This document shows, piece by piece, positions 7,722-36,212 of a DNA stretch of 37,585 nucleotides. Below the pieces are notes generated by a model. The model worked only from the letters and a program-made list of their open reading frames with translations. It did not search any database and was not told the origin of the DNA. A program made the translations under genes and the position numbers. Source of the stretch: a bacterium. Its GTDB lineage: Bacteria > Patescibacteriota > Doudnabacteria > UBA920 > 2-01-FULL-46-14. Numbering within the stretch: position 1 is the first letter of the stretch; each line of letters begins with the position of its first letter. Location: contig JAUYKH010000017.1 in assembly GCA_030700065.1 (NCBI GenBank), forward strand, positions 1 through 37,585. The letters run 5' to 3'.

Positions 7722-9536
7722 CTATTGATTTTCCAATGCCTCTTTTGCCTTTTGAATATCGAGGCGCTGTTTCGGGTCAGTCGTGATAATCTGGTCCTCG
7801 GTATAGGAGGCAACAACCCGAATAGCCACGTGTTTTAATCCGGCGAAGAAAATCCCCTCGCCGACTTCGCTCTCGAGGAGCAGATATTTTTCTCCTTCGG
7901 TCAGAAAAAAAGTCTCGGCGACGATATCGATCGAGGCGGGCGATTGTTTGAGCAGAAGCTGGATGGAGGAGTTGGTCACGACCGGTTTGCCGTACGGGCT
8001 GGCAAGAAAATCCGAGACATCCTGCGTGATCGTGGTCAGGCCCAGATAATATTTGCGCGACCGTTTGGCAATCCCGAACAAAAACCGGGCCGAATCCTCG
8101 TGCTGCATCATCCACCACGCTTCGTCAATGACCAGAATGCGCTTCTTCAGAGACGATCTGACCTCGTTCCAAATGAAATTCAAAATCACGTAAATCGCGA
8201 TTGGCCGCAGCACATCCTCCAAATCGCGAATCGAAAAAACGACCAGCTGGTTGTCGAGGTTGATATTCGTCGGCTGATTGAAAATCCCGCTGAATGTGCC
8301 GTCCGTATATTTCGAAAGGCGCTGGGCGAGGCTCTCCGCCCCTTGAATACCGCCCAAAACCTCCACCAGATCGCTCATTGTCGGAATTTGCGCTGTCGAA
8401 AAATCCGACTGCGGGGTGATGTCGTGCGTCGCGTAAGTCTCCCAGATAGCCCGATCCATGATCGCTTCTTCGGTCGGGTCGAGTTTGCCCAGCATCAAAT
8501 TCATGAGTCCCAAAAGGTTGATGACCGCTGACCGCAAAACGTCCGCCGGATCCTCGTCCGCGAGCCCTTTGGGCAGGTCAAAGGGATTGATTCGGGAATT
8601 TGAATTAAGTGAGACTCCAAGGTAAGACCCGCCGACGGCCTCGGCCAAATGTTTGTATTCATTCTCGGGGTCGATGATTATGACGTCCGCGCCAATCATC
8701 AGGGATCGCAGGACCTCGAGCTTCACGGCATAGGATTTGCCAGCGCCGGCTTTGGCGAAGACGACTGAATTCGCGTTTTCCATCTGAAAGCGGTCGAACA
8801 GAATCAAACTGTTGTTGTGGCGGTTTATCCCGTACAAAATCCCGTCATTTGAGGTCAACTCCGAGGAGACAAAAGGAAAAGCAGTGGAAAGCGGCCCGGT
8901 ATTCATGTTGGTTGAAATGGCGAGCTCGTCCGCCCCCAAAGGCAGGGTGGAATTGAAGCCCTGCTCGGCCTGCAAAACGGCGCGCTTGGTAACCACGAGT
9001 TTGGAGGAGAGGGCTGACTCAACGCTCGACGAAATCTTGTCCAATGCCGGCAGGTCATCCGCGTACACCGTGAAATAAAGGGCAAACCGGAAGTACCGCT
9101 CCGTCCCTTGCTGAAGGCTGTCGCGCAATTCCTCGACGTCATGATAAGCGGTTTCGAGCATGGGATCTCTCACGGCTCCTTTATCCTGATTCATACTGAT
9201 GGTCGCCTGGAGCTGGCCGACTTTGTCGCGCAGTTTCTTCATTATCACATCGGTCTCCATGGGGTAAATGAACATCGAAATATCCATGGGGATGTCCATA
9301 TTGATTACCGGGGACAGCCAGTTGGTCGAAAGATACCGCGGATAGGTCAGCACAAAGAATGATCTCGCGTATTTGCCCGAGACCTGGAGATAATTGCTCT
9401 CCACCTTCATCGCCGAAGGGGCGATGAGATCCCGCAGAGAGGAAATGCCCTTGCGAAAAGCACGTTCGGCTTCCAGCAATTGCCTGCCAACGCTTTTTTC
9501 CGGCGATTTATTTTTTGAAAAAAAATTCAGCTTCAT
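7722..9536 (-). CDS. VirB4/TraC-like T4SS ATPase
   Basis: Walker A (VVFAKAGAGKSYAVKLE), Walker B (ILVIDEAWWMM), VirB4-like context. Confidence 0.9.
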   Translation of the reverse strand: MKLNFFSKNKSPEKSVGRQLLEAERAFRKGISSLRDLIAPSAMKVESNYLQVSGKYARSFFVLTYPRYLSTNWLSPVINMDIPMDISMFIYPMETDVIMKKLRDKVGQLQATISMNQDKGAVRDPMLETAYHDVEELRDSLQQGTERYFRFALYFTVYADDLPALDKISSSVESALSSKLVVTKRAVLQAEQGFNSTLPLGADELAISTNMNTGPLSTAFPFVSSELTSNDGILYGINRHNNSLILFDRFQMENANSVVFAKAGAGKSYAVKLEVLRSLMIGADVIIIDPENEYKHLAEAVGGSYLGVSLNSNSRINPFDLPKGLADEDPADVLRSAVINLLGLMNLMLGKLDPTEEAIMDRAIWETYATHDITPQSDFSTAQIPTMSDLVEVLGGIQGAESLAQRLSKYTDGTFSGIFNQPTNINLDNQLVVFSIRDLEDVLRPIAIYVILNFIWNEVRSSLKKRILVIDEAWWMMQHEDSARFLFGIAKRSRKYYLGLTTITQDVSDFLASPYGKPVVTNSSIQLLLKQSPASIDIVAETFFLTEGEKYLLLESEVGEGIFFAGLKHVAIRVVASYTEDQIITTDPKQRLDIQKAKEALENQ

Positions 9537-10298: not shown

Positions 10299-10769
10299 TC
10301 AAAGCTTATCAAGCCATTGTTTACCAATACCTCCGCTGTGAATTAGCCGTTCCTCTTCCGCGGCCTTTTGATCAAGCAGATACGCCAGACTCTTGAGTCG
10401 GCTCATCCTGTTCGTCTGGTCTTTCGACTGCTGCGCCGCCGGCTGTTCCCGCTCTATTACCCTTTTTTTAACTTCAATTGCGTCTGCCGCCCCCCGGATA
10501 AATACGCGGTACCGGGGGGTGAAAAAAAATTTCACCAAGCCAGCGATGCTTCCCAATACGGGCCGGCCGTTAAATTTCCCGAACGCCAGCATCATAAACA
10601 CGAAAGCCGTCGGCAGGGTTGCCGCAAAAAAATACAGACTGACTTTAAACATGCTCCAGAAAAGAAACACCAAAAGCCCGCCGCCCAAGAGCGTCAAAAA
10701 CTGCTTCAAGGTGAGCGGTCCGATGATTTTGTCTTCCACGTCCACAAATTGGGGGATATTATACTGCAT
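10299..10769 (-). CDS. PrgI/VirB3-like membrane protein
   Basis: FVDVEDKIIGPLTLKQFLTLLGGGLLVFLFW start typical of PrgI family; adjacent to VirB4 genes. Confidence 0.8.
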   Translation of the reverse strand: MQYNIPQFVDVEDKIIGPLTLKQFLTLLGGGLLVFLFWSMFKVSLYFFAATLPTAFVFMMLAFGKFNGRPVLGSIAGLVKFFFTPRYRVFIRGAADAIEVKKRVIEREQPAAQQSKDQTNRMSRLKSLAYLLDQKAAEEERLIHSGGIGKQWLDKL

Positions 10770-10781
10770 GGGCTACGAAAT

Positions 10782-10820
10782 TTTGTTTCAAAACGGCAGA
10801 AAATTGGCTTTTTTATTATA
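10782..10820 (-). promoter_or_regulatory. Putative -10 (10815-10820) plus GAAACAAA leader motif (10782-10789)
   Basis: minus strand: TATAAT-25 nt-GAAACAAA; -35 weak. Confidence 0.5.
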
Positions 10821-13253: not shown

Positions 13254-16200
13254 TTATAGCTCTGAAGGGGCCGGGGAAGCGCCTCCTTTTTCTTCCTCCT
13301 CCATGGTTAACTTAATATCTGAAATACCCCTTTTAGCCATTTCCTCAATTATGCGCGCCTTCATCGCTGGGCTAAGGCTTGCTTTCTTATCAAGCAATTC
13401 GGTGGTCAAAGCCTTATTGGCCCTGAAAGTCTCTGCCATAACATCAAAATTAATGTTTTCCGGTGTCAGCTCCGCATCGCCTTTGTTTATGCCAAACATC
13501 CTCAATGCCCTGGCTTGGAAATCGCGAACCCGATGAACCGTATCCACGTATGCCGGCCCGAGCGAACTGTAGAGTTTTTCCGAAGCTTTGGAAATGCCTA
13601 GTACGTTACCTTTGGCATCCATGCGCATAAATGCCGCCGGTTCTATGCCGGAACCTATCCAATTGCTCGCACTCCCCCTATCCATGCGAAACTTGGCTGC
13701 GCCGGTCCGGCGGGCACTATATAACTCGCTCTCCAATTTTTTTGTGCTCTTAACAGTATTTTTGAACTGATCAACGTTGGCAATAGTATTGCCTTCAAAA
13801 TCGACGCTTTCCAAAATTTTATATTCGCGCCCGTCCCTTATTTCAGTTCTATAACTCGGCTTAAAAACGCCGGTATCGGCCAGCCCCTGCAGCATCGCTC
13901 CGGTGCCTTTTTCTCTCGCCAATTTTTCGTACCCGGAAAAATCATCCGCCGCTCGGAAATTCCCATCCCACTCTTCTACGGCCCCGCCAATTGATCTGGC
14001 GTTTCTTGATGCTTCGGCAAAATCGTCAAGGCGCGCAAATTGCCGGCCAATCTGCTCCGGCGTCCAGCCGACTTCCTCAAGTTTTTTTCGAGCCATTGTG
14101 CGCTCTTCGCCAGGCTCATAAGTCACGGCAAAATTTTCATCCTTCTCCAATTCTTGCCTAGCCTGCTCCCTGGCAATCGGTTCTCCGACGCCGGCCCCGG
14201 TTTTCTGTTTGACGCGCTTTTCTAATTCCTCATCATACCTTTTTTGCTTCTCGTAAAGTACAATATCGTTTTCGTTTCTTCCCAAAATCGCCGCTCGCAT
14301 AACGCCCAGCACATCCTCGGCATGACGGGCATTGCTAAAAGCTCTGGCCTTTTCATTGGCCGAAAGGCCGGATTCGTCATAATACTTGGCTTTCTCGGCA
14401 ATAAGCCGGCTCTCAGCCATTCTTCCATACATTGTTTTTTGACCCAACTCTGGCAGTCCCATTTTCCATTTCCACTCTGTCGGCATCATTCTGTTTAAAG
14501 TATCGTGGCTGTAACCGATTGCTCCTTCGTACGCCTCGCGCTCTTTCTCTTCCTTTCTCTTTTTCCAGGCTTCCTTCGCCACTCTCGGATTGAGAAATTC
14601 CATGACCTGATAAAGCCCCGCCCGCCCCTTTTGCCCTTTTTCTTTAGCGGCACCCAAGGCTTGGGTCAGACGCTTGGTATAAGCTCTTGCCCCAAGTCCT
14701 GCGAGTGCCCCGACACCTTTCCCCCCCCAGGCAAACGGCGCTTTGAGGCCCCGCTCCGCCAAGCCGACAATCGCCCCCGCGCCAGCTATCCCCATGCTCT
14801 TTGCCACAAGCAACTCTACCCATTTAAATGCCAAAATCAGTACAAAAATTGTGCCAAGCTGCAACATTTGGGCGAATGTTACTCCACCATTTTGATTTTT
14901 CAAAAGGTTGAGGTAATCAACCGTATCTGGGTTGGTTATTGTTTTGTCAAACAACGTCGGCAACAGCTTCATCCCCTTTGTATAAATTTCAAAGTCCAAC
15001 CGAAGGAAAAATGCAAAAATCGGACCGAACAGGACATACTTTGTATAAGTGGACCACCATTGTTTCCCATAACTAACCGTGGCCGGTACCACGAGTAAAG
15101 CAAAAGCAAGAGGCGACAGTACAAGCAGTACATATATCATGACCGTCCGAATCAACATAAAAGCGGCCATCGCCCCAAAGGTAATCACCACGGCAAGTTG
15201 TAAAATAAATTCGAACAGTATGGTCATAGTTCCGGCTAAAGCGCCGGAGGTGCTGGTACTAAACACCCTGAATCCGTCGACAATTTTTGACAGATGCTCG
15301 ACGCTTAATTTTTGATATAGATATCTAACTCCAGTCATGCCCTCTCCACCTTCTACTACCGTACTCACAGGCAAGAAGCTAAACTGGGCGGCATCTGAAA
15401 CTTGCAGGATGATTCTTGCGATGACCAGACTGAAATTGACCAGCAAGGCCATGACGACCAGGTTGACCAAAAGTTTTTTGTAACTATAGTTCTCCAGCTT
15501 CAGAATCGTTGCAAAGCCGATTATAATCAAAAACAAAATAAAGAACATATTCACCGCATCACGCACAAAAGTCCAACCAGCTAATATCGGCCCTCCGGCA
15601 AACTGGCTGGCGTCCATACTCAAAGTTGCCTCGAGTATCGGAACAATAATTATGGCGCCCAAATACTTAATAATCGAGCCGACAATCGTTACAATCGCAC
15701 CAATGATGATGTTTAAAACAGAAATCAAAGTCCCCGTAAATGTGTCTGCAATACCTTTCCCGCCCGTTGCAGAAGTGGTGGAGTTCCCGGCTGAACCTGA
15801 TACATACGGGTTGGCGTCCCCCGCCGCCTTAGCCGCCGCGTCCAATTCGGCCTGTGAACCATAAATCTCAAGCGTCGCCGTAACAGGAGCATTCGTGTAC
15901 GGCTCGTCAGTGGCACCCACGGTACCGCTCAAATCCAAAACCGGGAATACCCAAATTTTTCTTTTGCCGATCGGATATTGGCTCTCACTCGTGTCCAGCT
16001 CCAGTGTTTGCTTAAATGGTAACTCCGTTGCTGACGGTTTGGCGACCGCCTCAAAATGACACCCGCCCCAAATGATATAGCCGATGACCCCGCCGACAAA
16101 CGGATTGTACGCGCCGCAAATATCGGTTGCTCCTTGCCCCACGCTCGCGACATAAAATCCCTGAATTGTGTCGTTTTTTGGTCTGTCAATTTTATCCCCT

Positions 16201-20196: not shown

Positions 20197-20494
20197 TTTT
20201 ATTTTACCCCGTTAGAGATAGGAAGCGCTTGAGGCGATTCCTCAAATATCTCTTGCCGGGTCCTGATTTAAGGTATTTCTCCCGTATTCTGGCATCATGA
20301 TCATTTAGACACGCTTCGTAGTAGATTAGTTCAAAAGGACCTCTGCCTTTGGTGGAAACGATTTTGTTACTGTTATGCAGTAAGAAGCGCTTCCGTAAAT
20401 CCTCGGTTGAACCTGTGTACCAAAGACGGTCCTTTTTACTACGCAATACGTAAGTAAAGACCATGGTATCTCTAACGGGGTGAATTTTATTTTT
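20196..20494. mobile_element. Putative GIY-YIG cassette: inverted repeats 20206-20220 / 20467-20481 with candidate target duplication TTTTATTTT
   Basis: ACCCCGTTAGAGATA ... TATCTCTAACGGGGT; TTTTATTTT immediately outside both ends. Confidence 0.6.
20204..20464 (-). CDS. GIY-YIG nuclease family protein
   Basis: VFTYVLRSKKDRLWYTGSTEDLRKRFLLHN...GPFELIYYEACLNDHDARIREKYLKSGPGKRYLRNRLKRFL. Confidence 0.92.
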   Translation of the reverse strand: MVFTYVLRSKKDRLWYTGSTEDLRKRFLLHNSNKIVSTKGRGPFELIYYEACLNDHDARIREKYLKSGPGKRYLRNRLKRFLSLTG

Positions 20495-20506: not shown

Positions 20507-20568
20507 TTTGTTTCGAAATCCGTACTTTTTCTACATCTATTATATCACAAAAGTAGCCCCCCTGTCAA
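20507..20568 (-). promoter_or_regulatory. sigma70 promoter of the T4SS operon plus GAAACAAA leader motif
   Basis: minus strand TTGACA (20563-20568)-18-TATAAT (20539-20544)-24-GAAACAAA (20507-20514). Confidence 0.75.
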
Positions 20569-32293: not shown

Positions 32294-32405
32294 AATTTTC
32301 AATTCTCAATTTACAATTTACAATCAATTTTCAATGATTCAATGAGACATTGGAACATTCAATGAAAATTGAAAATTAGAAATTGAAAATCGTAAATTTT
32401 CAATA
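32294..32405. repeat. A/T-rich inverted-arm repeat ('empty' element)
   Basis: aattttcaattctcaatttacaatttacaatcaattttcaatg attcaatgagacattggaacatt caatgaaaattgaaaattagaaattgaaaatcgtaaatt. Confidence 0.82.
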
Positions 32406-32846
32406 AGGGTCCGCCATCAATTCCAGCCACGCGTCCCAGACCGCCGTAACTCCGGGCGCGTAAAATTCGACTGTCCCGCTGACCGGCTCGGAAATGTCCA
32501 AAACCTCATTGGCGGCAAACGCAAACGAACTTTGAATAGCGCTCCCCATCCCGTCTATGGTCAGATACCATTCAGGCGCTTGCTCTTCCCCAAAAAGCGC
32601 ATTGTTTTCGGTAAACGCTCCTGCCACCGCGGAATGAACGACGGGGCGGGGAGCGCTGCCGGCAAGCCGCCCGATACCATCAGAGGGATTGCCAAAATAA
32701 GGAGACAGCCACGCCATTGCGATAATAACAAAAGAGACCAAGAGAATTAATTTTGCAAATTCTTCCGGCGTCTCAACGACAGGGTCATTAAGAGCCTGCC
32801 AGACAGTCGGTTTTTTTGAGCGGGAACGTTTCGCTCGTCTTGCCAT
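32400..32846 (-). CDS. Hypothetical single-TM protein
   Basis: ATG at 32846 (MARRAKRSRSKKPTVWQ) preferred; ORF-track TTG start at 32888 lies in the leader; TM AKLILLVSFVIIAMAWLSPYF. Confidence 0.7.
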   Translation of the reverse strand: MARRAKRSRSKKPTVWQALNDPVVETPEEFAKLILLVSFVIIAMAWLSPYFGNPSDGIGRLAGSAPRPVVHSAVAGAFTENNALFGEEQAPEWYLTIDGMGSAIQSSFAFAANEVLDISEPVSGTVEFYAPGVTAVWDAWLELMADPY

Positions 32847-32878: not shown

Positions 32879-32940
32879 TTTGTTTCAACGCGAAACTAAC
32901 TCTTAATATATATTATAGCAAATTTTAACCTCCGTGTCAA
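32879..32940 (-). promoter_or_regulatory. sigma70 promoter plus GAAACAAA leader motif
   Basis: TTGACA (32935-32940)-17-TATAAT (32912-32917)-25-GAAACAAA (32879-32886). Confidence 0.78.
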
Positions 32941-34998: not shown

Positions 34999-36129
34999 TT
35001 ATTCTGCCTCTCTTAGGGCCAAACCGATTGCTGTGGCGTAGCTTAACGAGTCCTCGCGGGATAGCGGCGGCACCTGTCCCGCTTTCAAAATTTTTCCCCA
35101 CGGATTGCCAAGTTCCACCTTCAGACCCGGCAGAGAGCGAAGAGAATGTTCCGCGATCGCGCGGTGAGTCAAATTTTCATGAATAAAAGACGGCAAATGT
35201 TTGAGCTTGCTGGATCCGCCCGACAAAAGGAGGCGGGAAATTTTCCGATCCTGCGCGGAGTGCTCTTCGTAAAACCTGATTGTGTTTATGATTTCATCCA
35301 CCAGGTTTTTGACCACCGGGATCAAAGCTTTTTTTACAGTTTCCCTGCCTGCCTGCCTGCCGGCAGGCAAGGCCGGCGAGGCAGGTTTTCCGTCAACGTC
35401 CTCGAGTCCCGTCTCCCGCTTCATTTTCTCGGCCAAGACCATATCCAAACTCAATGCCTTGGCAATGCTTTCCGTAAAAAGATTCCCTGCTATCGGAACA
35501 GACGAGGTGAACTGCAAAATTCCTTTATCAAAAATAATCAGGCTCGTCCGCAGGGTATCAATGTCCGCGATCAAGATGGTCTCGCCCATGACATCTCCCG
35601 ACACCAAACTTCGCGCCGTGGCCTGGGACTCCACCTCCAACGCCAGCGGGATGAGTTTGGCTTCTTTGATAATGGAAACAAACTGATCCACATAATCTTT
35701 GGGGCACGCCGTGATGAGCACTGTCATTTTATCCCCCTCCTGCCCAAGAATCACCCAGTCCAGATAAACTTGTCCGATTGGCAGAGGTACGTAGGCTTCC
35801 GCTTCCCAAGGCACGGCCTCTTCCGCCTCCTTCTCGGAAACAATCGGCATTTGAATAACCCTGACAAACGATTTGGTTTCCGGCACGGAAGCTATGACAT
35901 ATGGCGTGGTAATTTTGCCAAATTTCGGATTATCAACCGCTTCCCTGATGGTTTTGCTCAAAAGTTTCGGATCGCTTAATACATCACCCGCGACAGCGCC
36001 TTTTGGAATTTTTGTATCAGAATAGGCCTGCACCGAAAAACCGCCGCGTTTCCTGGTGAATTGAATCATCTTTAATGAAATATCGCTAAGATAAAGTCCC
36101 AGCGGGGTTTTCCGTCGGTCAAAAAACAT
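34999..36129 (-). CDS. pilM: Type IV pilus assembly protein PilM
   Basis: LGLYLSDISLKMIQ, VPWEAEAYVPLPIGQVYLDW, LLSGGSSKLKHLPSFI actin-like PilM. Confidence 0.93.
   Translation of the reverse strand: MFFDRRKTPLGLYLSDISLKMIQFTRKRGGFSVQAYSDTKIPKGAVAGDVLSDPKLLSKTIREAVDNPKFGKITTPYVIASVPETKSFVRVIQMPIVSEKEAEEAVPWEAEAYVPLPIGQVYLDWVILGQEGDKMTVLITACPKDYVDQFVSIIKEAKLIPLALEVESQATARSLVSGDVMGETILIADIDTLRTSLIIFDKGILQFTSSVPIAGNLFTESIAKALSLDMVLAEKMKRETGLEDVDGKPASPALPAGRQAGRETVKKALIPVVKNLVDEIINTIRFYEEHSAQDRKISRLLLSGGSSKLKHLPSFIHENLTHRAIAEHSLRSLPGLKVELGNPWGKILKAGQVPPLSREDSLSYATAIGLALREAE
35344..35386. repeat. In-frame GC-rich palindromic insertion in pilM
   Basis: cctgcctgcctgcctgccggcaggcaaggccggcgaggcagg encodes PASPALPAGRQAGR. 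Confidence 0.82.
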
Positions 36130-36150: not shown

Positions 36151-36212
36151 TTTGTTTCTAAATCCGCACTTTTTGTTATCATAATTATATCACACATCGT
36201 TAACATAGTCAA
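36151..36212 (-). promoter_or_regulatory. sigma70 promoter of pil operon plus GAAACAAA leader motif
   Basis: TTGACT (36207-36212)-17-TATAAT (36184-36189)-25-GAAACAAA (36151-36158). Confidence 0.8.

Follow-up and report, generated by a model that had tools for sequence, protein, structure and literature searches.

The cold box of the cspA family, a 5'-proximal UTR element common to several genes, is among the closest described parallels to a short sequence that recurs at a fixed place in bacterial leaders, and the region of the promoter concerned here, around +19 to +26, lies where the footprint of RNA polymerase ends downstream. To our knowledge, no defined regulon is known in Patescibacteria outside the cultured Saccharibacteria. 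Our literature searches likewise returned no defined regulon and no promoter paper for Doudnabacteria, no paper on leaderless or Shine-Dalgarno initiation in Patescibacteria and no published description of the octamer GAAACAAA, with no relevant paper among the listed matches to 'GAAACAAA'. A further point of comparison is RfaH, which is described (PMC5995543) as serving surface and conjugation operons and as reading the ops element in the non-template strand.

Four leaders with a common octamer

In the window, by which we mean the whole stretch of 37,585 nucleotides that was analysed, a sequence-only reading had singled out four minus-strand leaders with the arrangement TATAAT-24/25-GAAACAAA, and all four are present. 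Their parts and the associated genes are given below; gene names without a Pfam score, here and in the other genomes, are our reading of the sequences.

36207-36212, minus strand: TTGACT, -35 box for pilM, separated from the -10 box by 17 bp (from the sequence and from the unselected TTGACA-17-TATAAT in 73 motif leaders)
36184-36189, minus strand: pilM -10 box TATAAT, extended TGaTATAAT (from the sequence and the leader alignment)
36151-36158, minus strand: pilM tag GAAACAAA, 25 nt after the -10 box, at about +20 and 21 nt before the ATG
36189 to 36151, minus strand: pilM leader TATAAT-25-GAAACAAA, whole span
34999-36129, minus strand: pilM, type IV pilus assembly protein PilM (Pfam PilM_2, E=4.8e-38)
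20539-20544, minus strand: -10 box TATAAT at the head of the T4SS operon
20507-20514, minus strand: T4SS head tag GAAACAAA, 24 nt after the -10 box and 42 nt ahead of the GIY-YIG start codon (ATG)
20544 to 20507, minus strand: T4SS head leader TATAAT-24-GAAACAAA, whole span
20204-20464, minus strand: GIY-YIG domain gene, first in the T4SS operon (Pfam GIY-YIG, E=3.4e-14)
32935-32940, minus strand: TTGACA of the 32400 gene, 17 bp upstream of the -10 box
32912-32917, minus strand: -10 box TATAAT of the 32400 gene (TGcTATAAT)
32879-32886, minus strand: tag GAAACAAA of the 32400 gene, 25 nt after the -10 box
32917 to 32879, minus strand: leader of the 32400 gene, from the -10 box through the tag
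32400-32846, minus strand: 32400 gene, 148 aa, likely ATG start at 32846 (MARRAKRSRSKKPTVWQAL...)
10815-10820, minus strand: -10 box TATAAT of the PrgI/VirB4 unit (TGcTATAAT)
10782-10789, minus strand: tag GAAACAAA of the PrgI unit, 25 nt after the -10 box and 12 nt before the ATG
10820 to 10782, minus strand: leader of the PrgI unit, from the -10 box through the tag
10299-10769, minus strand: PrgI family protein (Pfam PrgI, E=4.7e-7)
7722-9536: VirB4/TraG-like ATPase, downstream of PrgI (Pfam P-loop_TraG, E=2.7e-25)

A Pfam search with the product of the 32400 gene gave no match, and in the leader of its orthologue in L019 (G002) the tag lies at 28 nt. The tag is also kept before PrgI in G005, G008, G010 and G027, and many PrgI orthologues have no tag within 100 nt upstream. 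The longer block AAAAAGT(G/A)CGGATTT(A/C), which had been noted as common to the pilM and T4SS head leaders, is real; since this block, AAAAAGTRCGGATTT (window 20507-20530 and 36151-36174), was found in no other locus among those searched, its sharing by the two leaders is probably the result of pairwise duplication or chance.

Enrichment, promoter anchoring and taxonomic range

The octamer occurs 14 times in the window, compared with 3.4 occurrences expected from shuffles. Across its own genome (798 kb), the spaced pair TATAAT-N23-26-GAAACAAA was found nine times and the reversed-pattern control not at all, and when the gap was opened to N10-40, 9 of the 16 matches fell at N24-26. An unbiased scan of all 8-mers in 809 kb from four genomes ranked GAAACAAA first in the interval 20-30 nt after TATAAT (15 occurrences vs 0.57 expected), with 15 occurrences against 0 for the inverted octamer in these four genomes; single-base variants were mostly without enrichment. 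The permuted 8-mer GAACAAAA and the inverted motif TTTGTTTC yielded 26 and approximately 26 matches, respectively, in 50 genomes of the order, each corresponding to about 0.5 per genome. The genome-wide scan of the spaced pair that had been suggested as a check on the sequence-only reading thus placed the pairing far above control frequency. That the tag is a product of chance, or arises artefactually from A-rich leaders and from codon usage at MKQ, GNK and EKQ N-termini, appears extremely improbable: part of the GAAACAAA matches are indeed coding starts such as ATGAAACAAA, but the motif is non-coding in 73 of 100 leaders, the enrichment is confined to one order, and the controls, which are about 15-fold lower, already contradict this explanation. 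Starts of the form ATGAAACAAA (MKQK...), often in exported proteins (L054, L049, L061 and others), constitute a separate class of GAAACAAA occurrences, which may be unrelated to the promoter-anchored element.

We surveyed 288 genomes from the phylum, 25 of them in the window's order and 263 outside it. By hand tally, all 25 genomes of the order contained 2 to 11 matches (188 in total, about 7.5 per genome), and among the other 263 genomes 87 had any match, with about 0.5 per genome and a maximum of 4, which is the level of the reversed control. The GAAACAAA tag characterizes one order of ultra-small Patescibacteria, that of the Doudnabacteria lineage, and the motif is kept in the leaders of close relatives, which leaves the earlier claim standing.

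When the 73 non-coding leaders were aligned solely on TATAAT and GAAACAAA, TTGACA at 17 bp and a TGn extension emerged upstream, and a purine (85%) appeared where the start site is expected, 7 nt past the -10 box. As neither the TTGACA-17-TGnTATAAT arrangement nor the purine had been selected for, we concluded that the -10 boxes of tagged leaders are real promoters and that the tag begins at about +19; with -35 and -10 boxes at a fixed distance, the arrangement is that of a sigma70 promoter with a downstream element. The standard deviation of the spacing is 1.9 nt to the -10 box, computed over leaders chosen for a gap of 21-30 (in the N10-40 search, free of this selection, the peak is likewise at 24-28), vs 55 nt to the ATG. 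In relatives, the gap between the -10 box and the tag peaks at 24 and spreads to 28. The distance from the tag to the start codon ranges from 0 to over 200 nt. The fixed placement at about +18 proposed earlier is supported in that the tag is anchored to the promoter and not to the start codon.

This position bears on the main rival explanation, an oriented DNA operator, in which a transcription factor would bind duplex GAAACAAA at +19 to +26, contact RNA polymerase and repress or activate transcription. The targets recur in a regulon-like manner, the 8-mer is strict and its position coincides with the downstream limit of the stretch covered by RNA polymerase, but the site is non-palindromic and found in a single orientation, the spacing spreads over 21-29 bp, nearly a helical turn, and downstream repressor sites normally tolerate both orientations, so that we regard such an operator as somewhat unlikely. 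A palindromic operator was rejected, as the motif is preceded by no more than a weak T-rich stretch.

Constraint on the nucleic acid and the tagged genes

In pilM orthologues, the octamer always lies 22-25 nt after the -10 box, be it in the 5'UTR or in coding sequence. It is located within the 5'UTR in the window and in L110, and the near-matches GAAATAAA, GAAACCAA or GAAACACA occupy the same place in L093, L113, L120 and L121. In five species (L100, L103, L106, L111 and L119) the gene begins near the expected start site, i.e. is leaderless, and the octamer forms codons 5 to 9 (FGNKK, LGNKK or FRNKK), while in L095 it is found in another reading frame (WKQKK). Because the distance from the promoter is kept in 5'UTRs and coding sequence and in two frames, the constraint acts on the nucleic acid near the 5' end, not on the protein, and amino-acid conservation was rejected as the cause. 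For the PfkB-like kinase, the octamer stands next to the -10 box in seven named Doudnabacteria loci (in one of these, L219, it is upstream of a GIY-YIG gene that precedes the kinase gene) and an eighth leader, in L216, carries GAAACCAA in its place; in L220 the octamer is inside a short N-terminal extension, and the outgroup orthologues from Uhrbacteria, Zambryskibacteria and Colwellbacteria are without a -10-anchored tag.

An octamer that is fixed relative to the promoter and kept whether translated or not argues against a translation-initiation element and for a link to the start of the transcript. A translation enhancer, one of the functions named in the sequence-only reading, is accordingly disfavoured, as the position relative to the ATG is not kept and the tag may sit inside coding sequence. 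A Shine-Dalgarno or 16S-pairing element was likewise rejected on account of the variable ATG distance and the lack of complementarity, with no TTTGTTT in the 16S match and no TTTGTTTC near its 3' end. Close to the 3' end of the 16S rRNA gene itself (L061, own genome contig 13, approximately 14776-15540), an intron-like insert with a homing-endonuclease-like ORF apparently splits the gene, and the anti-Shine-Dalgarno sequence (GGATCACCTCCTTTCT) is intact after it.

A 5-mer Shine-Dalgarno sequence was found in none of 62 tagged leaders vs 9.5% of all genes. Since many tagged leaders are A-rich and free of such a sequence, with A-rich sequence following the tag, a generic leader function keeps some weight, namely that of a 5'UTR element for stability or translation of leadered messages without Shine-Dalgarno sequences, in an A-rich unstructured leader and with no regulon involved. 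The many genes of the lineage with leaderless-type or short leaders also speak for this explanation, which we nevertheless consider unlikely, given that the ATG distance is not kept, that the tag can lie within coding sequence, that near-identical A-rich 8-mers are not enriched and that the long-leader nusA-like, rpsB-like and prfB-like promoters are without the tag. In many genes no more than 6-9 nt separate the -10 box from the ATG (own-genome stretches such as L055, L056, L057 and L070), which suggests that leaderless transcripts are abundant in this lineage.

When the genes downstream of about 100 tagged promoters were clustered, recurrent orthologues emerged, for which the counts, obtained from exact-match searches, are minima: PilM in 7 genomes, the CAP-domain protein and the PilB-type ATPase in 6 each, the PfkB-like kinase, PrgI and the CheY-like regulator in 5 each, GH1 in 4, and GIY-YIG, the 32400 gene, MraY-like, NDH-2-like and pilin genes in pairs. 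The gene for GAPDH is also tagged. The co-ordination of pilus and secretion genes proposed earlier holds insofar as the tag is common to type IV pilus and T4SS genes, but it is not exclusive to them, and a pilus- or secretion-only regulon was rejected in view of the tagged PfkB-like, GH1, NDH-2-like, GAPDH, CAP-domain, MraY-like and CheY-like genes. In a sample from the own genome, 7 of about 15 top-scoring leadered or ORF-less promoters carry the tag, so that an interpretation as a tag of strong leadered promoters competes with that of a regulon; it is missing from strong promoters that drive NusA-like, rpsB-like and prfB-like genes or tRNAs. A GIY-YIG gene comes first in tagged operons of several genomes, including the T4SS operon (window 20204-20464) and the PfkB-like operon in L219, and is also seen in L166. 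In the products of further tagged genes, in L024 and L161, long C-terminal regions are joined to an N-terminal helix-turn-helix stretch of MerR/excisionase-like type (YISLKDAAIISGYTVSEL); one of these genes lies behind a leader of about 200 nt.

Candidate readers and comparison with known systems

A search for NusG-domain proteins (PF02357) had matches in 57 genomes, always a single one per genome, and hence no paralogue. Hfq (PF17209) was found in 0 of 61 genomes, in which controls were detected, and CsrA (PF02599) in 2 of 61, the own genome having none. CsrA was rejected as a common reader, being nearly absent from motif-carrying genomes, and an sRNA target of the Hfq type, as also put forward earlier, is disfavoured by the lack of Hfq in the 61 genomes. 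Folding of the segment from the start site to the motif gave values close to those of shuffles (-0.80 vs -0.63 kcal/mol), and a hairpin between the two was rejected as a general feature, with striking hairpins in L009, L197, L180 and L204. The window and the tagged leaders in nine other scanned loci gave no Rfam cis-regulatory match, so that a riboswitch or structured leader RNA is disfavoured for the leaders scanned; elsewhere in a genome of the order, an AdoCbl-II cobalamin riboswitch reached the gathering score at L188:1158-1235 (minus strand).

The presence of the element in T4SS and pilus operon leaders would fit antitermination in long operons by a signal of the RfaH/ops or boxA kind. 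We judge this to be very unlikely, as each matching genome has one NusG-domain protein and no paralogue, the tag is unlike ops or boxA in sequence, many targets look short or monocistronic and no GAAACAAA was found beside tRNA promoters.

Location, direction, sequence specificity, restriction to the order, recurrence of targets and constraint at the nucleotide level were established computationally. We tentatively favour, at somewhat less than an even chance, the reading of GAAACAAA as a directional promoter-anchored cis-element at about +19 to +26 that is read in early elongation and tags a regulon; in this reading, where transcription starts, that a reader exists and of what kind, and the sign of regulation are inferred. 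The element would mark sigma70-type units for pilus, T4SS, envelope, CheY-like and some carbon-metabolism genes across the order, and would act as nucleic acid within the first approximately 27 transcribed nucleotides, translated or not. Reading would take place during early elongation, on the nascent RNA or the exposed non-template strand, and the putative reader would most likely be a factor specific to the lineage, or else RNA polymerase together with an elongation factor of the general type. Such reading would set promoter escape, pausing or the fate of the 5' end, and in this way co-ordinate the tagged units. Against this reading, the spacing spreads over 21-29 nt, more widely than is customary where a protein contacts RNA polymerase directly, and the candidate readers were not encountered (a single NusG, no Hfq, CsrA nearly none). 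The original suggestion of a post-initiation or mRNA regulatory element was right in kind, as a directional, promoter-anchored element fits it, but named too narrow a gene set. If true, the proposed early-elongation element would provide an initial point of entry into how Doudnabacteria control their genes, where the tagged pilus and T4SS machinery may serve host contact or DNA uptake, with some carbon-metabolism genes co-tagged, and it would raise the question of what recognizes an octamer fixed at +19 whether or not it is translated.

It is possible, and we propose it with reserve, that the tag represents an undescribed class, i.e. an order-wide, promoter-anchored early-elongation octamer near +19 that functions alike in 5'UTR and coding sequence and co-ordinates pilus, secretion and envelope genes through a putative reader. 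Like ops, the tag is a short directional leader element with surface, pilus and T4SS operons among its targets, whereas it differs from the RfaH/ops system in its sequence, the lack of a NusG paralogue, the many apparently short targets and the fixed position near +19. boxA/nut antitermination sites are directional RNA elements in leaders as well, but the tag differs from boxA in sequence and is not seen at the tRNA promoters of the lineage. Classical repressor operators downstream of the start share the position and a regulon-like gene set, in contrast to which the tag is asymmetric, single-orientation and loosely spaced. The cspA-family cold box resembles it in being fixed near the mRNA 5' end of several genes, while the tag differs in sequence and gene set, may be coding and extends throughout the order.
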